In this document: one piece after another, positions 13,573-22,348 of the stretch
Position numbering within the stretch: the stretch's first letter is position 1
Layout: each line of letters begins with the position of its first letter
From: Bacteroidales bacterium
GTDB lineage: Bacteria > Bacteroidota > Bacteroidia > Bacteroidales > F082
Direction of reading: 5' to 3'
NCBI GenBank assembly: GCA_017645275.1
Contig: JAGCPH010000037.1
Span: forward strand, 93,783-139,892
Length of the DNA: 46,110 nt
Notes under the pieces: generated by a model
The model's input: only the letters and a program-made list of their open reading frames with translations
What the model was told of the DNA's origin: nothing
The model's database searches: none
Program-made: the position numbers and the translations under genes

Positions 13573-13630
13573 GAATAATATAATGAATAAAATACTCAAC
13601 CAGCATGCATTATTAAAAAGCACAACAAAC

Positions 13631-16405
13631 ATGAAAAAAATAGTCATTATAGCTATAGCCATAATCATATTGATTATTACGGGCTGTAAAAAAGACACCA
13701 CAACAACTATATCTCCTGGTTCCATTTATGGCACAGTAACAGATAAATCAACAGGCGACTGCGTAGCAACTGCAGGCGTTGAACTTATGCCTAAAGGTCT
13801 TAAGACTGTCACTGGTTCAGATGGTTCTTTCCAGTTCACACAGATAGACCCTGGAGATTACAACTTGTTTATCACAAAAACAGGTTATAAAGATTTGAAA
13901 TCGAATACTATAACTGTAAAATCAGGAGAAACAGCAAAAGGTGATGTGCAGATTGAGAAGTTACCGGCTTCTTTACAGATTATGGATAATAACGGACAAC
14001 CAGTAACAGAATTGAACTTTGGAGGAGATGCTGGAATTATAAGTAAGACGTTTAAAATATATAACAAAGGAATAGAATCTTTTAGCTTTAGCATTGAAAA
14101 ATATGTTGACTGGATTGAAAATCCAATACCTGCATCTGGGACCGTTCCAGTAAATGGTAATTGTCCTGTAGTCTTAAAAATTAACAGGGACAAACTAGTT
14201 GATGGATTAAACACTTCATCAATAATAATAAAATCTGAAACAGTTGGTGGTGTTGAACTTATCGTCAAAGCAAGCAAAAATCCATCACTCTCAATTCTTA
14301 ATAGCAACGGCTCTGAAATTACAGAATTGAATTTTGGCTCGGATGAAACCTCTATCCAAAAAACATTTAAACTACATAATAATACCAATCAAAACGTAAG
14401 TTTTACAATAACAAACACGGCAGCATGGATAGATAATATAAATCCATTATCAAACGTATTAACTCCTAATAGCTCATCGACAATAACTGTTCATATAATC
14501 AGAGATTTGCTGTCAAATGGTGACAATAGTACTATTTTGTTAATTACTACACCCAATAAAGGCAACTACGAGTTGATTGTTAAAGCAAAAAAAGTAACGA
14601 ATAGCCTTGTCATTGAGCTACCGTCTGCGAATCTGATGGTTCAAAAAATAGATTTAGGGTGTATGAATTGGAATGCCGCCCAAACAGCATGCCAAAATTC
14701 ACATATAGCAGAATATAATGATTGGAGATTGCCAACACAAGCAGAGTTAATGATTTTATATCAAAACAAACCTATTATTGGCGGATTCGAAGATGAATAT
14801 TACTGGTCGTCTTCATCCGCCGACTACAACGAATACTATATGATTAATTTTGATGATGGTTCTAATAGTTATCATAGTATTTACTATCAGCACTATGTTC
14901 GAGCTGTTAGAACTATTAACGGCACGCCCCAGGCCACCCCTACTGTTACGACAGCAGAACCTTCAAATATAACCACAAATTCTGCATTGTGCGGCGGTAA
15001 TGTAACTGATAATGGCGGTGCTGATGTGACGGAAAGGGGAATTTGTTGGAGTTTATCACCAAACCCTAACATCAACAACACCATTATAGAATGTGGGACA
15101 GGTATCGGTCCATTCACATGCAATATGACAGATCTTACCAATAACACAAAATACTATATTAAGGCTTACGCCAAAAACTCACAAGGCACAGCTTACGGCG
15201 ATGAGGTTACGTTTACAACAGAAATATTCCCAACATTCCAATATGGTGGGAATACTTATCAAGTGGCGCCAGACCCTGGAAATTCAATGAGTTGGGTGAA
15301 CGCTGATTCATATTGTAATAATCTAACATTACATGGACTATCAGGCTGGAGATTGCCAACATTAGACGAACTAATTCAAATGTATGCTGAAAGAAACTCA
15401 ATAGGAGGTTTTTCTTCTTATGCTTCTTATTGTTCTTATTGGAGTTCTACTTCATGTGAAGGAAACAATCATAATAAGGTCAACTTTTATTATAGCGGCA
15501 GCATAGATTGTGATGATTATGATCATCTGGTTCGTCCAATAAGGCCTATAAACGGTAGTACACCGACCATTCCTTCTGTTTCAACGATAGATCCTTCAAA
15601 TATTACCGCTAATTCAGCGACATGTGGCGGCAATATCACTGAATCTGGTGGAGCCACAATAACTGCAAGAGGTGTGTGCTGGAGTACTACAAACCATAAC
15701 CCAACGACATCAGACTACCATACAACAGATGGTACTGGAGCTGGCACTTTCACGAGTAATATTACGGGTTTGACAGGAAGTACAACTTATTATGTCAGAG
15801 CCTATGCCACTAATAGTGCTGGAACTGCTTATGGAGATCCTATCGGTTTTATTACATCTGGTAGTGGTGGTTCTTCAGGATCTGATTTTTTGGAAACTTT
15901 CGATAACGGCATTCCTGCAAATTGGGCGACGATTGATGCCGATGGTGACGGATACTCATTTGAATTGGGCACTGAGCCAGAATTTTCTGGTTATAATGGA
16001 GGTAATTGCGTTATATCGGCTTCCTATATTAACGAAATTGGAGCATTAACACCAGACAATTATCTTGTCACCCCTTTAATGCATATAGTTGACGGGTCCG
16101 TATTTGGTTTCTTCGCTTGTGCACAAGACAGCAATTATCCTACAGAGCATTTTGGTGTTGCAATATCGTTCACCAGCCAAACTGACGCTTCAACTTTTAC
16201 TACAATTATTGAAGGAGATCTGCAAGCCAAGAAAATTTCCAACGCCAAAGAAAGAGGATTAAACGAACAAGGCGCGTGGTATTTTTGTCATGTTGATTTA
16301 AGTTCGTATGCTGGTAGCAATATTTATATAGCTATACGTCATTTTAACTGTACTGACCAATTTTATCTTGACATTGACAATGTAGGGCTACATATTAATA
16401 AATAA
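13631..16405 (+). CDS. Modular surface lipoprotein with DUF1566, FN3-like and cleaved-adhesin domains
   Basis: Start chosen at ATG 13631 (MKKIVIIAIA), which gives a lipoprotein signal with lipobox IITGC (Cys19); the ATG at 13583 would add 16 polar residues in front. Length is 924 residues, the same as the preceding paralogue, but the architecture differs: CarboxypepD_reg-like (29-110), two BACON-like domains (112-214, 215-318), DUF1566 (327-431), FN3-like (435-530), a second, divergent DUF1566-like domain (534-640, GWRLPTLDEL), FN3-like (644-745) and a cleaved-adhesin-type domain (about 750-924, DNYLVTP). The last type occurs in gingipain/haemagglutinin proteins. Probable surface adhesin. Confidence 0.85.
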   Translation: MKKIVIIAIAIIILIITGCKKDTTTTISPGSIYGTVTDKSTGDCVATAGVELMPKGLKTVTGSDGSFQFTQIDPGDYNLFITKTGYKDLKSNTITVKSGETAKGDVQIEKLPASLQIMDNNGQPVTELNFGGDAGIISKTFKIYNKGIESFSFSIEKYVDWIENPIPASGTVPVNGNCPVVLKINRDKLVDGLNTSSIIIKSETVGGVELIVKASKNPSLSILNSNGSEITELNFGSDETSIQKTFKLHNNTNQNVSFTITNTAAWIDNINPLSNVLTPNSSSTITVHIIRDLLSNGDNSTILLITTPNKGNYELIVKAKKVTNSLVIELPSANLMVQKIDLGCMNWNAAQTACQNSHIAEYNDWRLPTQAELMILYQNKPIIGGFEDEYYWSSSSADYNEYYMINFDDGSNSYHSIYYQHYVRAVRTINGTPQATPTVTTAEPSNITTNSALCGGNVTDNGGADVTERGICWSLSPNPNINNTIIECGTGIGPFTCNMTDLTNNTKYYIKAYAKNSQGTAYGDEVTFTTEIFPTFQYGGNTYQVAPDPGNSMSWVNADSYCNNLTLHGLSGWRLPTLDELIQMYAERNSIGGFSSYASYCSYWSSTSCEGNNHNKVNFYYSGSIDCDDYDHLVRPIRPINGSTPTIPSVSTIDPSNITANSATCGGNITESGGATITARGVCWSTTNHNPTTSDYHTTDGTGAGTFTSNITGLTGSTTYYVRAYATNSAGTAYGDPIGFITSGSGGSSGSDFLETFDNGIPANWATIDADGDGYSFELGTEPEFSGYNGGNCVISASYINEIGALTPDNYLVTPLMHIVDGSVFGFFACAQDSNYPTEHFGVAISFTSQTDASTFTTIIEGDLQAKKISNAKERGLNEQGAWYFCHVDLSSYAGSNIYIAIRHFNCTDQFYLDIDNVGLHINK

Positions 16406-16504
16406 ACCAAATGAAGTGTCCTATTATCTCAATTGCCATAACGAATTCCTAATAATAAAAACAATAGAAATAATAATAAAAACAACCAATTATTTAATAA
16501 TATC

Positions 16505-17554
16505 ATGGAAAACACCTCTCAAGAATCAAAAAGCCACAAAATGGTGGGCTACGTAAGCACATTTCTCAAATCAGCGGCCGTAGCTTTGATATTTGCCGTA
16601 ATTTGCTTCGCATTCGACCGGTATGAAAACATCCAGCAACAGATACAACTCGACGAATCTATTCAGAAATTGGATGAGATCGAGAAAGGTCTGTCAACGC
16701 GCTCACTGGGCATTTTCCCTGGCTATATAAGAGAGATCAGGGAGCTGTTCGATAACATTGAAAAGACTGACTCGGTGGTGATTATGGAGGATGTGCTTTA
16801 TTACGGATTCAAAAGCAAGCCAAAAGAATTCTACGATATGAACAAAAAACTGTTTGACCATGCCATGATGGATGGATCTGTTACAATTGCTTACTATAAT
16901 TTTGAACAAACCCGTGTGCCTGTATCAAAGAACATTTTTCACAATATGATTAAAGAAGAGCTCATTAGCCTTGATAACCTTGCCAAAATGAAAAAAGAAT
17001 GCGACAGTATCATTAAAACATTGACAAATGTAAGGGGCAAAGACAAATATGATCTGGTTATGAAAACAGAATATGATTTGTGTGATAAGTACTTCAAGGC
17101 AACCATTGCTAATGATTTTAAAAAATTCTCAGAAAGTGTTGACAAATATTTGAGCACAGAGTTGATTGATTTCGGCGAAAACGAAAATTCACAAGGTGCT
17201 TTGATGGCCAAAGATATGTGTTTGGAGATTCAAAGAATCAAAGAAAAATATCTCAGAAAAAATCAAAAACAAATCACTTTCAAAGATTTTGAAGATATGA
17301 ATCGCGAAATAAGCGTTGTTATAGCTAACGCATACAAGCTACGAGGTATCAAACTGGTGCCATTGGACGAACACCTTACCATGAGCTGCTGGATGGTGAA
17401 AAGCACAACTAACATGAAGGCTGTATTGGCATTTCCAAGTAAGTATTCGTCTGATGAAATCGGTTTCTATTCTCAAGATGACGCATTTTCAAAATACATT
17501 TTCACAATGTTGGATGGTATACTGCTAAACCAACAGTTTGAAGGGGATAATTAA
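16505..17554 (+). CDS. Single-pass membrane protein of unknown function
   Basis: A 349-residue protein with a short polar N-terminus and one hydrophobic helix (about residues 17-38, SAAVALIFAVICFAF), then a largely helical domain. The segment IQLDESIQKLDEIEKGL suggests a short coiled coil after the membrane. A more conserved-looking core follows: SLGIFPGYIREIRELFDN, SVVIMEDVLYYGFKSKP and TIAYYNFEQT. This may be an alpha/beta sensor domain, but I do not recognise a family. GC content is higher than in the preceding lipoproteins. It lies 100 bases after the large lipoprotein and before the lectin-fold protein. Function unknown. Confidence 0.75.
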   Translation: MENTSQESKSHKMVGYVSTFLKSAAVALIFAVICFAFDRYENIQQQIQLDESIQKLDEIEKGLSTRSLGIFPGYIREIRELFDNIEKTDSVVIMEDVLYYGFKSKPKEFYDMNKKLFDHAMMDGSVTIAYYNFEQTRVPVSKNIFHNMIKEELISLDNLAKMKKECDSIIKTLTNVRGKDKYDLVMKTEYDLCDKYFKATIANDFKKFSESVDKYLSTELIDFGENENSQGALMAKDMCLEIQRIKEKYLRKNQKQITFKDFEDMNREISVVIANAYKLRGIKLVPLDEHLTMSCWMVKSTTNMKAVLAFPSKYSSDEIGFYSQDDAFSKYIFTMLDGILLNQQFEGDN

Positions 17555-17653
17555 AAAGCTTTTTAATTTAAAAAATAACAAGGGCAAAATAGATTCTTCG
17601 TTTGATATCGGTTTTACTGGAAACGGTATGTATATGACATTAAACTTCTAATA
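17541..17653 (+). pseudogene. Possible remnant of an outer-membrane barrel C-terminus
   Basis: In the spacer after the membrane protein one frame reads SSFDIGFTGNGMYMTLNF followed by TAA (to 17653). Ending in a strand with terminal Phe is typical of outer-membrane barrels. The frame is open only back to about 17529 and has no credible start. It may be a leftover from a deleted gene; chance is not excluded. Confidence 0.3.
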
Positions 17654-17677
17654 ATTATTAACAAAAATATCAGTATC

Positions 17678-18469
17678 ATGAAAAAGCTTTTAATTATAAC
17701 TATTATGCTAGCATTAGTGCCTTCTATTTATGCACAAAATGCTACACGAGGTGTGATAAGTGGTACATTTTCCGTTAATCGTAATAAGAAAGTGCAATTC
17801 TCACAAGGTAATCTTCAGTACCAAGCATCAACAAAAACTTGGCGTTTCGCAGAGCATCAGTGGGATATGATAGGCGACGGCAACAAGAACATCTCCTCAA
17901 ACTACAGCGGCTGGATAGACCTTTTCGGATGGGGTACTGGCAATAACCCGACAAACTCTTCGACATATTGGAGCGATTATTCCACATTTAATGATTGGGG
18001 GAATAATGCCATTTCCAACGGCGGCGGCAAGAGATGGTTCACTCTTACAAAAGACGAATGGGATTATGTATTTAACTCAAGAAGTACAAACAGTGGGATG
18101 AGATACGCTAAAGCGGTGGTTAATGGTATTAATGGACTAATCCTGTTGCCCGACAACTGGAATGCCAGCTATTACACGTTGAGCAACACTAACAACAGCG
18201 AGGCAGGCTTTACAAACAACAGGGTCTCAAAAGCAATATGGGCGGAGAAGTTTGAGTCCAACGGAGCAGTCTTCATACCTGTCGCAGGCTATCGCTTCGG
18301 AACGGATGTCTACTATGTCGGTGCAGGCGGCTACTACTGGTCGGCTACGGTTCATGGCAGTGATGCATACATATTATGGTTTGATGAGGGTTATCTCAGG
18401 GCAGCTGACGATTACTGGCGCTGCGACTTTGGGTGCTCTGTGCGCCTTGTCTGTTCTGCCGATAAATAA
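17678..18469 (+). CDS. Secreted C-type-lectin-fold protein with a DGR-like variable C-terminus
   Basis: A 263-residue protein with signal peptide MKKLLIITIMLALVPSIYAQ. The body follows the Fibrobacter-type major paralogous/DUF1566-like fold: VQFSQGNLQYQASTKTWRFA, GWIDLFGWGTGNNP, KDEWDYVF and a C-terminal lectin core GGYYWSAT ... GCSVRLVC. In retroelement-diversified members of this fold, the C-terminal core carries Asn at many positions in the template. Here these positions hold Phe, Asp, Tyr, His, Gly and Cys, nearly all encoded by codons ending in C or T, as mutagenesis of AAY codons would give. The secreted product may bind a variable ligand. The two-TM gene follows after 29 bases. Confidence 0.8.
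   Translation: MKKLLIITIMLALVPSIYAQNATRGVISGTFSVNRNKKVQFSQGNLQYQASTKTWRFAEHQWDMIGDGNKNISSNYSGWIDLFGWGTGNNPTNSSTYWSDYSTFNDWGNNAISNGGGKRWFTLTKDEWDYVFNSRSTNSGMRYAKAVVNGINGLILLPDNWNASYYTLSNTNNSEAGFTNNRVSKAIWAEKFESNGAVFIPVAGYRFGTDVYYVGAGGYYWSATVHGSDAYILWFDEGYLRAADDYWRCDFGCSVRLVCSADK
18298..18453 (+). other. Candidate DGR variable region
   Basis: The region encodes RFGTDVYYVGAG to GCSVRLV of the lectin-fold protein. At positions where the family commonly has Asn, the codons are TTC, GAT, TAC, TAT, CAT, GGC, AGT, GAT, TAC, GAT, GGT, TAT, GAC, GAT, TAC, TGC, GAC, TTT and TGC. All are NNY, as expected from adenine-directed mutagenesis of AAC/AAT. The cognate template repeat is not in the window, so the call is inference. 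Confidence 0.45.
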
Positions 18470-18498
18470 ATATATAACAATTATTAAATCTATAACAA

Positions 18499-19158
18499 AT
18501 GTTTGGAAGAATTTTAGGTATTATCATTAGTATCGGCATTATTATTGCCGGATTATCAGGAAATTTTGTGCTTATAGGCACTGAAAGCAGTATTGCTCTC
18601 GTCGTTGTTGGTGTCATATTTCTTATTATTGATATTATACAAATCGTAAGGTATAACAAACAACAAGAAACCGCTAACGGCGATAAGCCAGTTGTGGCTG
18701 AAATCAAAGATAAAGAGAACGTGAAGAATACAAGTGTCAAGCCAGAGACTCAGCCAAAAGTGCAAACTAACCATCACACTCAAATCGAGACAAAGTACTA
18801 TTTCAAAAACATTTTCGGTACTGATTTCAGCCGTTTTGAAGTGCGTGAAAACGTTGCTGTCACAGACATTGCAGGCTATGCAAATGAGAAGTTTCAGCTT
18901 TACAAGACACGGCCATATCAGGCTTACAAAGCAGAGTGGGGCAACCCTTACACATTTGGCCTTTACCAAAACGATGAAGTCAAAGCCCTCATTATGATTG
19001 GCGACGGTCGTAAAATGTGCAAAAATGTAAAATATCTTATATCAAAGATGTACGCCAAGAAATGCGACATTCCTTATGTTACATTCTGGACCGAAGCTCC
19101 GAACGAAAAGGATTATGTGATAATGCGTGTTAACAAGTATTTGAACAATAACATTTAA
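18499..19158 (+). CDS. Two-TM protein with conserved-looking C-terminal domain, upstream of the RT
   Basis: A 219-residue protein. Two hydrophobic segments (about residues 4-20 and 30-52) form a hairpin anchor, followed by a charged linker (about 55-100). A compact alpha/beta domain (about 105-219) carries AYKAEWGNPYTFGLYQNDEV, ALIMIGDGRKM and IPYVTFWTEAPNEKDYVIMR. The strand order loosely recalls PD-(D/E)xK-like domains, but no complete motif is seen and I do not assign it. It is not similar to Avd, the small helical accessory protein of DGRs. It stands between the lectin-fold gene (29-base gap) and the structured segment before the RT, so a role with the RT is plausible. Function unknown. 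Confidence 0.75.
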   Translation: MFGRILGIIISIGIIIAGLSGNFVLIGTESSIALVVVGVIFLIIDIIQIVRYNKQQETANGDKPVVAEIKDKENVKNTSVKPETQPKVQTNHHTQIETKYYFKNIFGTDFSRFEVRENVAVTDIAGYANEKFQLYKTRPYQAYKAEWGNPYTFGLYQNDEVKALIMIGDGRKMCKNVKYLISKMYAKKCDIPYVTFWTEAPNEKDYVIMRVNKYLNNNI

Positions 19159-19167
19159 TTTTAAACA

Positions 19168-19304
19168 GAAAAAGGAGGATGCGGCTTTCGCCGTGCCTGC
19201 AACGGATGCAGCATTGTCAACAACAGGTTTTGCAGGCTGACCCGACAATGTATCATCTCGTAAATTGTCAAACTTTGACAATTCAAAGCAATTCCTCCTT
19301 TTCT
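19168..19304 (+). ncRNA. Candidate structured RNA upstream of the reverse transcriptase
   Basis: A closing stem pairs AAAAGGAGGA (19170-19179) with TCCTCCTTTT (19293-19302). Inside are CGGC/GCCG with a TTTC loop (19182-19193), GCCTGCAA/TTGCAGGC (19195-19202 with 19230-19237), and a perfect 10-bp inverted repeat AATTGTCAAA/TTTGACAATT (19263-19283). CATTGTC (19212-19218) can also pair with GACAATG (19244-19250), giving an alternative fold. A branched RNA closed by a long terminal stem immediately 5' of an RT is the layout seen in retrons and in some defence RTs with ncRNA partners. It shows no similarity to the lectin gene's 3' end, so it is not a DGR template repeat. Confidence 0.6.
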
Positions 19305-19313
19305 TTTTTTGTT

Positions 19314-20516
19314 ATGGAAAGCATTCTGCATCAGATAGCCAATCAGCAAGTGTGGGAGGAATACTTAGCCTGTCGCCTAAAACAAGGTCGCCTTAATTGG
19401 CGTGAGTTTGACGAGCTTGATTCTTTTGTGGAGCAGAAACAATATCTCCCCACTATTTCCAAGCTGTTGGACGATGGGTTAAGTATCCCGACCAAAAAGC
19501 TTATAAACAAAAGCGGCACTGATAAAAAACGAGTTGTTTACACTTATCCCAACGATGAGGTGCTCGTTTTGAAAGTAATCGCTTCCCTTTTGTACAAATA
19601 CGACAATATCTTTGCCTCAAACTGCTATGCGTTCAGAAAAAACATAACGGCTCACGACGCTGTTTTTAAAATACAAAAAGCAGTTAGAGGCAAGAGATTT
19701 TGGGCATATAAGACAGATATCCACAACTATTTCAATTCATTAGACATTTCGTTGCTTCTTCCAATGCTTTCTGATATATTCTCGGATGATAAATCTCTAT
19801 ACGACTTTTTTGAAAAAATGCTGACGAATAAAAGAGTTAATGTGAATGGAGTTATTACCGAGGAAGAAAGTAAGGGCGTTATGGCTGGTACCCCAACGGC
19901 ATCGTTTCTGGCTAATGTCTATTTGATGAAAGTCGATAAATATTTTGAAGAAAAAGGCGTTATATATGCCAGGTATTCAGATGATATTATCATATTTGCC
20001 CCAAATGAAACAACCTTGCAGGAATACAAAAACACGTTGTTTGGTTTCTTTAATGAATATCATCTGGAAATCAATCCAAAAAAGGAGAAAACCCATACCC
20101 CTGATGATGGTTTTGAATTTTTGGGATTCAAATGTCAAGAAGATAAAATCGATATTTCATCTTCCACAAAAGCCAAAATCAAAGGCAAGATACGACGCAA
20201 AGCGCATGCTTTGATGCGTTGGCGTACTAAACACAACGTTTCGGCAGACAAGGCCATAAAAGGGTTCATTAAATCAATAAACATCCGGTTTTACGAGTCA
20301 GACGATCCTGAAACACTCAACTGGTCTAGATGGTTTTTCCCCGTAATCAACCAAGCTGAAGGCTTGAAGGAAATAGACCATTACATCCAGCAAAATATCC
20401 GATACTTAACCACAGGAAAACATAATAAATCCAACTATAGGACCAAGTATTCTGATATAAAAAGATTAGGGTATAGAAGCTTGGTTAATGAGTTTTTTAA
20501 GTACAAAATCGTATAA
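19314..20516 (+). CDS. Stand-alone reverse transcriptase, not intron-type
   Basis: A 400-residue RT. Motif 1/2 region: VVYTYPNDEVLVLKVIASLL and YAFRKNITAHDAV (about 74-117). Motif 3 WAYKTDIHNYFNSLD carries catalytic D135. Motif 4 is GTPTASFLANVYL (192-204), and motif 5 is YARYSDD with D223 and D224. Motifs 6/7 are LEINPKKEKT and FEFLGF (251-272), followed by a helical thumb and a C-terminal extension (YLTTGKHNKSNY, LGYRSLVNEF). Motif 4 is short like retron and DGR RTs, not the GTPQGGVISP of group II introns. It lacks the DGR 'SQ' and the retron NAxxH and VTG signatures. There is no maturase or HNH domain. Start at ATG 19314; an in-frame ATG at 19179 runs through the structured segment and is rejected. 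Confidence 0.88.
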   Translation: MESILHQIANQQVWEEYLACRLKQGRLNWREFDELDSFVEQKQYLPTISKLLDDGLSIPTKKLINKSGTDKKRVVYTYPNDEVLVLKVIASLLYKYDNIFASNCYAFRKNITAHDAVFKIQKAVRGKRFWAYKTDIHNYFNSLDISLLLPMLSDIFSDDKSLYDFFEKMLTNKRVNVNGVITEEESKGVMAGTPTASFLANVYLMKVDKYFEEKGVIYARYSDDIIIFAPNETTLQEYKNTLFGFFNEYHLEINPKKEKTHTPDDGFEFLGFKCQEDKIDISSSTKAKIKGKIRRKAHALMRWRTKHNVSADKAIKGFIKSINIRFYESDDPETLNWSRWFFPVINQAEGLKEIDHYIQQNIRYLTTGKHNKSNYRTKYSDIKRLGYRSLVNEFFKYKIV

Positions 20517-20596: not shown

Positions 20597-20974
20597 ATGA
20601 AACAGGAACTTGCCAACGAGTTGTTGAGCGCGCTCAAGGAATACAAAGAACTGGGCATCGCGGAGCAGATAGACTACCAGAAGTTCTATCTGGACTCAGT
20701 TATTAGCAATTCCGCAGCTCTTTCTGACCTATATCCAGATCCAATTGCCCCTGAAATGGTCGATAATTGTACAAAAGAGCCTTCCGAAGCAGAGAGAATG
20801 GCCGATATTTTGGATTTCGTGGCCGATAAAGATGCGATAACCACCGAGATGATTGTAAAACGATTCGATTTCACGGCCACTACAGCGAAACGCTATCTGC
20901 GACAACTAACCGAGTTTGGCTATCTGAAAGCTCATGGTGGCAATAAGAATCGTACTTATCAGGTCTTGTTTTGA
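20597..20974 (+). pseudogene. Fic-protein remnant: N-terminal helix plus C-terminal winged helix
   Basis: A 125-residue open frame from ATG 20597. The first 35 residues (LLSALKEYKELGIAEQIDYQ) match the N-terminus of Bacteroidetes Fic-family AMP transferases. The last 60 (FDFTATTAKRYLRQLTEFGY) match their C-terminal winged helix. The catalytic Fic domain with its HPFxxGNGR motif is absent, and residues 35-60 bridge the two ends directly. Typical Fic proteins are about 330 residues, so roughly 200 residues are missing without loss of frame. It may be a decayed gene or a mini-protein kept for its DNA-binding part. Upstream TTG/ATG codons at 20519 would add hydrophobic residues from the promoter and are rejected. 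Confidence 0.6.
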
Positions 20975-21052
20975 CCCGATAATTTATAAAAATCAAGGCT
21001 TGTCAGTCACCCAATAAAATATTTTAAAAAAAAACGAGTAAAACCCCTCAAT

Positions 21053-21090
21053 ATTCGGAATTTATTGTAATTTTGCAGAAAATTCCGAAT
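21053..21090 (+). promoter_or_regulatory. Inverted repeat flanking the -7 box of the ATPase gene
   Basis: ATTCGGAATTT (21053-21063) and AAATTCCGAAT (21080-21090) are perfect 11-bp inverted repeats. They enclose the -7 box TAATTTTG (21068-21075). The second arm ends 7 bases before the ATG. This is the layout of an operator for a dimeric repressor, or of a short leader hairpin. Confidence 0.65.
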
Positions 21091-21097
21091 AGAGATA

Positions 21098-22348
21098 ATG
21101 CGATACATTAATAGAGACAGCTATCTGCAACAACTGATAAACCGCAAGGACAACGGCGAAATCAAAGTCATTACCGGCCCGAGAAGATGCGGTAAATCGT
21201 GGCTGCTTAACAGAATATATAAGGATTACCTGATAAAATATGGCATTCCTGAAAAGAATATCATTATCGTGTCTTTCGACGTCGATGAAGAGGAAAACGG
21301 CGATCTTTCCGACCGTCAGGCATTGAAATCTTATCTTTATAGCCGTATTACATCGAAAGAAGAGCCATATTACGTCATCCTTGATGAAGTTCAAGAAGTT
21401 GAGGGATTTGAGAAACTGGTGAACGGCTTGAATGCAAAAGATAATGTTGATGTGTATGTGACTGGAAGCAATTCGCATTTCCTTTCTTCCGATATAAATA
21501 CCATTTTCCGTGGGCGTGGCGATGAGGTGAGGGTTTATCCGTTCTCGTTCAAGGAATTCTGTATTGGCCGTACTGAGCCGACAAATGAACTTTGGAAGGA
21601 GTATTACACTTACGGAGGTATGCCAGGTCTTCGTAAGCATCAAACTCCGGAAGAAAAGATCGTTTACCTACAACGCCTTTGGAACAAGACATATCTGGAT
21701 GACGTTGTTGAACGTCATCATGTTAAAAACCGCGAAGCTCTCGATGCTTTGGTCGATGCTCTCTGCTCTTCAGTGGGCTCGCTTACCAATCCGAATCGTG
21801 TCAGCAATATCCTTCAAAGTACCCAAAATGTGAAAATAGACCCTGATACGGTATCAAACTATATTAGTTATTTGGAAGAGGCTTTTCTTTTTGAAGGTGC
21901 AAAACGCTATAACATTAAGGGTAACAAATATTTTGAGAGTATAAAGAAGTATTATACTGTCGATGTCGGTCTTAGAAATGCCAAACTTAATTTCCGCCAA
22001 CAGGAGGTAACACATATAATGGAAAATGTGATATATAACGAATTGCGAATGCGTGGATATGCTGTTGATGTCGGAGTGATAGAATCACGTGAGATGCGCA
22101 ACGGCAAGCAGGAATATATCCAATATGAGGTAGATTTTATAGCCAGCAACGGCATCAATAAATACTATATACAATCGGCTTATGCCATTGATGACGAAGA
22201 AAAACGTCAGCAAGAGATGAAATCATTGTTAAAAATAGATGACAGTTTCCAGAAAATTGTCATAGTGGGGCAGGATATAGCCGAATATTCCGACAACAAA
22301 GGAATCCGTTTCATGGGTTTGTTCCAATTTTTGCAGTCAGGACTTTGA
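21098..22348 (+). CDS. AAA ATPase with DUF4143 C-terminus
   Basis: A 416-residue protein. Walker A GPRRCGKS lies at residues 27-34, and the Walker B-like VILDEVQEVEGF around 92-103, followed by VTGSNSHFLS (sensor-like). The C-terminal region matches DUF4143: the YEVDFIAS strand corresponds to the nuclease-like Asp, but the following strand reads YYIQSAY, so the E-x-K of an intact PD-(D/E)xK site is missing. Compare the gene at 5220, which has IEVK. It probably acts as an ATP-dependent regulator rather than a nuclease. A palindrome over its promoter suggests repression, perhaps by a TA-like or autoregulatory mechanism. It is the last gene of the AT-rich island. Confidence 0.85.
   Translation: MRYINRDSYLQQLINRKDNGEIKVITGPRRCGKSWLLNRIYKDYLIKYGIPEKNIIIVSFDVDEEENGDLSDRQALKSYLYSRITSKEEPYYVILDEVQEVEGFEKLVNGLNAKDNVDVYVTGSNSHFLSSDINTIFRGRGDEVRVYPFSFKEFCIGRTEPTNELWKEYYTYGGMPGLRKHQTPEEKIVYLQRLWNKTYLDDVVERHHVKNREALDALVDALCSSVGSLTNPNRVSNILQSTQNVKIDPDTVSNYISYLEEAFLFEGAKRYNIKGNKYFESIKKYYTVDVGLRNAKLNFRQQEVTHIMENVIYNELRMRGYAVDVGVIESREMRNGKQEYIQYEVDFIASNGINKYYIQSAYAIDDEEKRQQEMKSLLKIDDSFQKIVIVGQDIAEYSDNKGIRFMGLFQFLQSGL

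Follow-up and report, generated by a model that had tools for sequence, protein, structure and literature searches.

A UG26 reverse transcriptase, an RT-5 RNA and an accessory protein form a compact, conserved unit in a Bacteroidales contig

An accessory protein, an RT-5 non-coding RNA (ncRNA) and a reverse transcriptase (RT) constitute one conserved, compact and co-inherited unit in a stretch of Bacteroidales DNA of 46 110 nucleotides (GenBank assembly GCA_017645275.1, contig JAGCPH010000037.1), hereafter called the window. The best explanation, which taken as a whole we consider rather probable, is that the unit is a UG26 reverse-transcriptase ribonucleoprotein (RNP) operon, uncharacterised and class-2 UG/DRT-like. 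In appearance the three-part unit, whose small protein is probably bound to the membrane, is a so far unstudied relative of those bacterial antiviral systems in which, as in telomerase, a built-in RNA is copied into DNA. The RT and RNA models were known before, and the window's RT and RNA are members of UG26 and of Rfam RT-5 according to these library models; what the present analysis adds is the UG26-RT-5 linkage, the accessory family and the helices P0, P1 and P2. UG26, RT-5, the accessory family and a covariation-supported pseudoknot, once joined, define a testable RNP. In the literature searched, UG26 and the RT-5 RNA were named with no biology attached, and no published description of their linkage, of the accessory family or of P0, P1 and P2 was found; this search did not extend to the 224-RNA paper, said to have named the RT-type RNAs, nor to the UG/Abi survey. 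Either of them may already describe what surrounds UG26 or where RT-5 occurs.

Table 1. Positions of the features in the window (position 1 is its first nucleotide).
Feature	Position	Strand	Basis or remark
C-type-lectin-like gene	17678-18469	+	30 nt upstream of the accessory gene
Accessory protein, 219 aa	18499-19158	+	ORF
RT-5 ncRNA, extended model	19165-19313	+	Rfam RF03026, covariance model R1, covariation
P0 closing helix	19169-19179 with 19293-19303	+	Outermost pair here an A-C mismatch; absent from the printed Rfam model
P1 hairpin	19181-19194	+	Absent from the printed Rfam model
P2 pseudoknot	19195-19200 (GCCUGC) with 19232-19237 (GCAGGC)	+	3' partner is the apical loop of P6
Long hairpin, P3	19204-19208 with 19254-19258	+	Covariation
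Long hairpin, P4	19212-19218 with 19244-19250	+	Covariation
Long hairpin, P6	19226-19229 with 19239-19242	+	Covariation
P5 hairpin	19263-19283	+	Two-sided changes in 6/7 pairs
J5/0 loop, CAAAGCAAU	19284-19292	+	Candidate template (inferred)
UG26 reverse transcriptase, 400 aa	19314-20516	+	PADLOC RT_UG26, RVT_1, invariant residues

The preliminary description of this DNA had reported four co-directional elements separated by short gaps. ORF positions confirmed this layout: between 17678 and 20516, the lectin-fold gene, the accessory gene, the RNA and the RT all lie on one strand and the gaps are short. Neither of the findings that it had named as speaking against a module (RT homologues mostly devoid of the RNA and the two-TM gene, or an RT placed among ordinary intron-derived RTs) was obtained, because 90 of 92 UG26 loci have the RNA on the 5' side of the RT, the accessory C-terminal domain was detected by tblastn in 79 of 80 and the RT was separate from group II intron RTs. 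Spacing was measured in 74 of the 80 loci (L032, L043, L044, L045, L046 and L053 being omitted); the median distance was 7 nt from the accessory stop codon to the RNA and 2 nt from the end of the RNA model to the RT ATG. The proximity to the RT start codon would suit an RNA that is a mere cis-regulatory leader of the RT mRNA, neither template nor partner. This reading is very unlikely: at locus L081 the RNA stays beside the accessory gene, 3 kb and two other genes away from the RT, at L005 another ORF intervenes between RNA and RT, and in the class-2 UG RTs studied so far such RNAs serve as templates, in the account given in PMC13174585.

The RT was matched over its full length (2-396 of 398) by the PADLOC model RT_UG26 with 518.5 bits. 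Among the 25 listed of the 64 matching families, the runner-up named UG models were UG4 (114 bits), Drt9 (112 bits), UG27 (112 bits) and UG17 (110.9 bits); RVT_1 scored 78 bits. UG26 is filed under DRT in PADLOC, and the unit combines a UG-family RT with a cis-encoded conserved ncRNA, as is expected of class-2 DRT systems. As described previously, the RT has 400 residues, starting at the ATG at 19314, and intact catalytic aspartates: D135 of motif A and D223 and D224 of the YSDD box were invariant in 79/79 aligned sequences (alignment A4, 79 of the 92 loci), as was Y379. The earlier view that the RT is neither intron-type nor retron also held. A retron identity was rejected on the score of the sole retron model matched (63 bits for a cut-off of 235). 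A group II intron identity was rejected on the score of the corresponding model (124.5 bits for a cut-off of 300), on the Rfam scan of the window, which gave RT-5 only, and on the tree. In this phylogeny, proposed at the outset as a check, 14 UG26 sequences were split from 25 other RTs, group II intron RTs included, with a support of 0.967; the value of 0.238 at the UG26 node arises from midpoint rooting. Outgroups were restricted to viral UG27, UG4 and group II RTs because the phylum genomes yielded no UG17, Drt9 or UG27: no match was obtained in 158 genomes for each, and no control genome matched either, so that absence is not implied. Among solved structures, the RT profile was closest to group II intron-type RTs (104 bits), which counts against the UG26 RNP explanation, and its similarity to TERT chains was weak (from E 6e-7). 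Viral contigs contained 17 relatives, the best with 26% identity across a full-length stretch. Matches in plasmid and phage records were all below 60% identity, and the 20 plasmid matches listed were annotated as group II intron RTs.

The lectin-fold gene noted previously is real, and its membership of the unit was not borne out: no tblastn match (E <= 1e-3) was found in the 91 other UG26 loci, whose available flanks ranged from next to nothing to 5 kb. Its position just 5' of the accessory gene speaks for the earlier proposal of a non-canonical DGR that targets the lectin gene and has its template elsewhere. This is strongly disfavoured and has hardly any likelihood left. The genome-wide search for a template repeat of the lectin C-terminus returned none in the window's genome (82% complete); beyond the gene itself, DNA similarity was highest at a single paralogue, with 73% across about 95 bases and 87% across 31, and 28 further stretches of this genome, some of them in one gene, matched the lectin gene. 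A DGR is unsupported because the search of this 82% complete genome gave no template repeat, because no target is conserved, and because the single RVT_1 match in the genome is the RT of the window, which is UG26 by model; the RNA is also no copy of the lectin target. With the lectin gene outside the unit and a DGR unsupported, the adjacency of the RT unit to a surface-protein gene is best taken as coincidence.

The RT-5 RNA is a conserved companion of the UG26 RT. RF03026 (RT-5) matched the window at 19191-19295 with 72.1 bits (gathering threshold 45.7), and the Rfam scan of the window returned no other family. The multi-hairpin segment of the preliminary description is thereby a real structured RNA whose extent had to be corrected (Table 1). 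Covariance model R1 scored 120.4 bits on the window RNA, which is one of its 35 training rows. Among the 92 UG26 sources, 88 full-length matches and one contig-cut match (L044) were obtained, all with E <= 1e-6, 35 of the matching RNAs having trained R1; the RNA of L012 was found with filters off. The RNA model scored at most 12.5 bits (E 0.42) at 28 loci of other RTs, and no Rfam family was found in 13 UG27-type viral loci.

In the first RNA alignment (A5, 35 sequences, unfitted), 95.5% of cells were paired and two-sided changes were present in 32/45 pairs; 0/500 shuffles were as high on any of five measures. In the fitted alignment of 88 RNAs (all but L003, L012, L013 and L044), 98.7% of P0 cells were paired with two-sided changes in 10/11 pairs (96.1% and 7/11 in the unfitted alignment), and P1 had such changes in 5/5 pairs (4/5 unfitted). 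These 88 sources had been chosen as known full-length matches, so that finding the RNA in 88/88 of them is no test. The pseudoknot P2 was not fitted, R1 having been built without it. Its cells were paired in 528/528 cases, two-sided changes were present in 5/6 pairs, and shuffles as high numbered 0/500 for four measures and 51/500 for the fifth, further pair types. As read from the alignments, the RNA is a closed, pseudoknotted scaffold, in which J5/0, a loop of some 9 nt that opens with an invariant CAAA, directly follows the last hairpin, P5. J5/0 started with CAAA in 90/90 RNAs read (the 88 full matches, L044 and L012). In 87 RNAs (sets without L008, L012 and the cut L044), the loop measured 8-10 nt and no other stretch of four unpaired positions reached the 99-100% conservation of CAAA.

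The two-TM protein of the preliminary description is a real ORF, and what is conserved in it is the C-terminal domain (about residues 95-215), not the TM helices. The latter (about residues 6-27 and 31-50, by eye and hydropathy, then a linker) are a local replacement of the accessory N-terminus. TM helices are also present, separately from those of the window, in an orphan homologue (L128), and an amphipathic N-terminus was seen in 48 of the 73 members of the accessory alignment (A3). Sequences of L016, L017, L032, L042-L046, L060, L063, L067 and L079 were left out of the 80 loci because their frames were over-long or read through, their ends were lost or they were near-duplicates. No convincing Pfam family was found among the 73 members (23 weak matches, none of them SLATT), PADLOC gave no match to the window's protein, and no PDB sequence match was believable (two at E 0.11 and 0.96; none at E <= 10 in another search). 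The accessory protein was present in 6/393 genomes drawn from the order, and all 6 were among the 11 with UG26, the window's genome being in both sets. Accessory and RT distances were correlated over 67 loci (r 0.82; maximum of 1000 permutations 0.39) and over the 63 closer loci (r 0.57; permutation maximum 0.26). The accessory protein is not essential to the core, since the distant clade L008-L012 has RNA and RT with no accessory match; this clade also counts against the three-part explanation.

According to the mechanism that we propose, the RT would bind the RT-5 RNA and copy the J5/0 loop into a short cDNA, P5 serving as the 5' template boundary by analogy with SL5 of DRT10. In the window member, the motif complementary to J5/0 is ATTGCTTTG. 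The cDNA would probably be reiterated, via slippage or realignment, and a tyrosine within the RT may act as its primer. Y379 is the candidate; its invariance is only suggestive of protein priming. An amphipathic helix or, in the window, two TM helices would keep the accessory protein at the membrane, where it would be a partner that acts as effector or sensor under the control of the cDNA or of the RNP. Among possible purposes, anti-phage abortive infection is the most likely, as in the class-2 relatives DRT9 and DRT10; Drt9 and UG17 are described as RNA-templated defence enzymes (PMC12483538, PMC12632851).

The preliminary description had also considered an RT-ncRNA defence module. The module stands, with a UG26 RT, a companion RNA and an accessory gene nearby, but its defence function is plausible and unproven, few neighbours being defence genes. 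PADLOC (E <= 1e-10) matched at most 6/69 and 1/66 nearest neighbours, which gives no defence-island location and speaks against the immune part of the UG26 explanation. The scans covered 135 of 148 listed neighbours, the others being 12 that position and size marked as near-duplicates, plus a long L050 protein; Pfam matches (66 of the 135) were mostly metabolic or housekeeping among the 25 of 63 families listed. Both results, together with flanking genes common to L009, L010 and L012 (one family, compared by eye), would agree with a vertically kept cellular RNP with a regulatory or genome-maintenance role, not an immune one. We consider this unlikely in view of the patchy distribution of UG26 (11/393 genomes of the order, 2/5 in the window's genus) and of genome G349, in which the 0.5 kb between an orthologous neighbour gene and the end of the contig shows no alignment to the module. 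Because few UG26 neighbours are defence genes, a cellular role other than phage immunity is nevertheless conceivable. Several unprecedented DNA-writing mechanisms have recently come from class-2 UG RTs, and work on them has led to the proposal that telomerase is of bacterial origin (PMC12632851, PMC12483538). A speculative extension, with perhaps a small chance of being right, is that UG26/RT-5 is a distinct telomerase-like RNP in which the fixed CAAA word is written as an unvarying DNA, TTTG- or dT-rich, that a new membrane-anchored family reads, and which may serve such a non-immune role. The RNP resembles telomerase by its pseudoknotted RNA, separate RT and short candidate template at a hairpin boundary, and differs by the weak RT similarity and by a repeat-alignment sequence that is not established.

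DRT9 (UG28 RT + ncRNA) resembles the unit by its RT and ncRNA core, as in L008-L012, and by an invariant short unpaired tract near the RNA 3' end. Its template is a universally conserved poly-U near the 3'-proximal hairpin (PMC12483538), whereas the UG26 tract is CAAA, and the window's RT scores far lower on the Drt9 model than on UG26. A DRT9-like RNP, in which slippage on the A-run of CAAA(A) would give a homopolymeric, dT-rich product, toxic or factor-titrating, and the accessory protein would only modulate, accords with this parallel, with the conservation of CAAA and with the lack of an accessory match in L008-L012. It is rather unlikely: the run has only three A in 29/87 RNAs, window included, and the conservation of CAAA could mean protein binding rather than templating.

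DRT10 (UG17 RT + SLATT + ncRNA) is likewise a three-part operon with a membrane-type partner, and by published description its ncRNA and that of DRT9 share with RT-5 a closed stem, small hairpins and a loop after the last hairpin. Unlike DRT10, the window's RT prefers the UG26 model to UG17 (518.5 versus 110.9 bits), the accessory protein has no SLATT match, few neighbours are defence genes and the RNA lies between accessory gene and RT instead of upstream of both. An A-B-A' realignment signature is reported for 85-95% of DRT10 ncRNAs. In unpaired J5/0, CA recurred in 13/42 distinct loops for a null of 12.9, i.e. at chance, which counts against the UG26 explanation, and in the P4/P6 loop the signature showed no clear increase (p 0.058). 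Wider stretches were mixed: repeats of at least 4 nt occurred in 56% of 21-nt stretches including paired bases (36% of shuffles), mean repeat length in these stretches was not raised (3.53 versus 3.41, sd 0.11), and in a fixed 10-nt register a match of at least 3 nt was present in 60% of 88 RNAs (permutation p 0.049-0.065), its A part being paired in P5. DRT10-style repeat addition is thus not established in UG26 from these sequences. The window RNA carries a striking CAATTC-AAAG-CAATTC. This repeat was not relied on, since most of its first copy belongs to the 3' strand of P5 and the unpaired loops, taken together, are at chance. The candidate template word is invariant in UG26 and variable in DRT10.

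The UG26 module is a real, conserved, three-part unit made up of an accessory protein, an RT-5 RNA (Rfam RF03026) and a UG26 reverse transcriptase (RT). Its anatomy is secure, its mechanism is what we infer, and in kind it is akin to DRT9 and DRT10, two RNA-templated class-2 UG RT systems. As far as the papers searched show, the assembly of the module, the accessory family and the RNA architecture are new. In that literature, outside which stood a UG/Abi survey and an RT-RNA paper, UG26 RT was found in one paper only, as a label of viral RTs (PMC10504277), and no paper was found on RF03026 or on RT-5 RNA with a reverse transcriptase.

Features of the module and of the adjoining lectin-fold gene in the window
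Feature	Position	Strand	Remark
Lectin-fold ORF	17678-18469		ends 30 nt upstream of the accessory ORF
Accessory ORF	18499-19158	+	219 aa
Structured RNA	19165-19313	+	
RT	ATG at 19314	+	400 aa

The window RT, the sole RVT_1 match in its genome (2.0 Mb, 82% complete), was matched by the PADLOC model RT_UG26 with 518.5 bits over the whole model length. The next named UG models among the matches listed were UG4 (114 bits), Drt9 and UG27 (112 bits each) and UG17 (111 bits). Group II intron RT (124.5 bits, cut-off 300) and retron St85 RT (63 bits, cut-off 235) were rejected. A tree was built with 14 UG26 RTs, 13 viral-contig RTs grouping as UG27 (all by grouping, two also by PADLOC), one other viral RT, three UG4 and eight group II RTs. 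The UG26 RTs were split from the other 25, group II RTs included, with a support of 0.967. Branching within UG26 near a distant clade (loci L008-L012) was weak (0.238). Among solved structures, it was group II intron-type RTs that the RT profile matched best, with 104 bits. All 79 aligned UG26 RTs keep D135 and the YSDD box; Y379 was the sole invariant tyrosine past residue 225 (79/79), and Y387 was tyrosine in 74. Y379 may be considered a candidate priming residue by analogy with DRT10, whose priming residue is reported at the C-terminal end of the RT (PMC12632851), and DRT9, for which priming by tyrosine is reported (PMC12483538).

The Rfam RT-5 match lies at 19191-19295; of 13 other sources scanned (E <= 0.1), nine matched and six exceeded the gathering score. 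An extended model was built on 35 sequences and run over 92 UG26 sources. Full-length matches at E <= 1e-6 were obtained in 88, a contig-cut match in L044 (43.1 bits, E <= 1e-6) and, with filters off, a match in L012 (55.3 bits), so that the RNA is found in 90/92 sources. The structured segment thus stays near the RT in homologues, a point that the preliminary description had set as a test: 89 of the 90 RNAs lie within about 0.6 kb upstream of it. As for the two sources without a match, L003 was taken as the same genome as L081 because their contigs are equally long (51493), with the RNA beyond the flank examined, and the RT of L013 is cut by the contig end. Most of a further 37 weak matches (E 7.5e-5 to 0.45) were these RNAs read on the reverse strand. 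When 28 loci with other RTs were searched, nothing scored better than E 0.42. In L005, a small lipoprotein-like ORF (L005:1006-1482) lies between RNA and RT.

The RNA is closed by helix P0, which encloses hairpin P1, the long hairpin P3-P4-P6 and hairpin P5. In pseudoknot P2, GCCUGC upstream of P3 pairs with the P6 apical loop (UUGCAGGC). P0, P1 and P2 are absent from the Rfam RT-5 alignment as printed, and the outermost P0 pair of the window is an A-C mismatch. In the unfitted alignment of 35 sequences, 95.5% of cells pair, with two-sided changes at 32/45 pairs; in the 88-RNA alignment, which was fitted to every helix except P2, the figures are 96.6% and 40/45. For P2 alone, 528/528 cells are paired, with two-sided changes at 5/6 pairs; none of 500 shuffles scored as high for pairing, two-sided changes or covariation, and 51 did so for further pair types.

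P5 and P0 are joined by the loop J5/0, 8-10 nt in length (87 RNAs), which starts with CAAA in all 90 RNAs read, L012 and L044 among them; CAAA is the only four-position unpaired run conserved at 99-100%. The loop follows hairpin P5 as the DRT10 template loop follows SL5 (PMC12632851); in DRT9, the U-rich template adjoins the 3'-proximal SL6 (PMC12483538). The A-B-A' pattern of DRT10 was at chance in unpaired J5/0 (13/42 vs a null of 12.9). When the stretch was widened to 21 nt, so as to take in parts of P5 and P0, 56% of 55 distinct stretches held a repeat of 4 nt or longer vs 36% in shuffles, with no rise in mean repeat length over shuffles. In a fixed 10-nt register, 60% of 88 had a match of at least 3 nt (p 0.049 to 0.065 on re-pairing left and right halves), and the repeat test on the P4/P6 loop gave p 0.058. 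Given these mixed tests, J5/0 is proposed as the candidate template location by position and conservation.

Adjacency of the accessory gene, the 'two-TM' gene of the preliminary description, was also kept. Its C-terminal domain was detected by tblastn in 79/80 UG26 loci from the contig scan, the exception being L044, whose sequence starts 60 nt before the RT; the gene stands directly ahead of the RNA-RT pair in 78. In L081, accessory gene and RNA lie together about 3 kb (3.2 kb) upstream of the RT, and the two genes between RNA and RT (L081:1803-6188), recognised by eye, are presumably trkA-trkH-like. L053 carries a tandem pair of accessory-domain genes ahead of the RNA (L053:3881-4851). Accessory distances correlate with RT distances across loci. 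Pfam gave nothing convincing on the 73 members searched: the lowest E was 0.007, for a single protein, and the family matching most members (7/73) reached 0.009. No PDB chain matched the domain at E <= 10. The TM stretch of the window protein had no tblastn match in 91 loci. Hydropathy flagged only the proteins of the window and L074 among the 73, the L074 stretch sitting in an N-terminal extension with a possibly wrong start; an amphipathic N-terminal segment was found in 48/73 (shuffle p <= 0.05). An orphan copy of the domain in a second genome (L128:1108-1797) starts with separate hydrophobic helices at its N-terminus; the 3.3 kb examined contained no RT, and the RNA model gave only a weak match (17.6 bits) within another ORF. 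The protein is probably membrane-attached, through N-termini that differ between members.

Of 393 genomes sampled from the order, 11 carry UG26, that of the window included. The accessory domain profile matched six of the 393, all among these 11; the five without it are the distant clade L008-L012. The contig scan added at least 80 UG26 loci, labelled mainly ruminant-gut Bacteroidales and representing related species rather than independent events; one locus (L093) is labelled Acidobacteriota. No close UG26 relative was found in viral contigs. The related viral-contig RTs (L094-L106), two of which were tested and are UG27 by PADLOC, had no RNA at gathering score in an Rfam scan of their loci. 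Within the window's genus the module is patchy (2/5 genomes), which argues for an accessory rather than a core role.

The lectin-fold gene had been read as the target of a non-canonical DGR with its template elsewhere. This reading was not supported: no template repeat for the lectin C-terminus was found in the genome (82% complete), the gene had no match in 91 other UG26 loci, and 28 more stretches matching the protein occur elsewhere in the same genome. Lectin/adhesin-like genes occupy 13583-18469, the adjoining protein belonging to a large paralogous family.

For the other early reading, an RT-ncRNA defence module, 135 of the 148 nearest neighbours listed were scanned in sets of 69 and 66. 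At E <= 1e-10, PADLOC named at most six of the 69 and one of the 66 (RmuC); with so few matches, the guilt-by-association case for defence is weak. A Pfam scan of the set of 66 gave mostly metabolic or housekeeping families among the 25 of 63 listed. Downstream of the module (20597-22348) lie genes for a small protein of winged-helix type and for an ATPase with AAA_14/DUF4143 matches (21098-22348), the latter matching the PADLOC candidate PDC-S01 with 401 bits.
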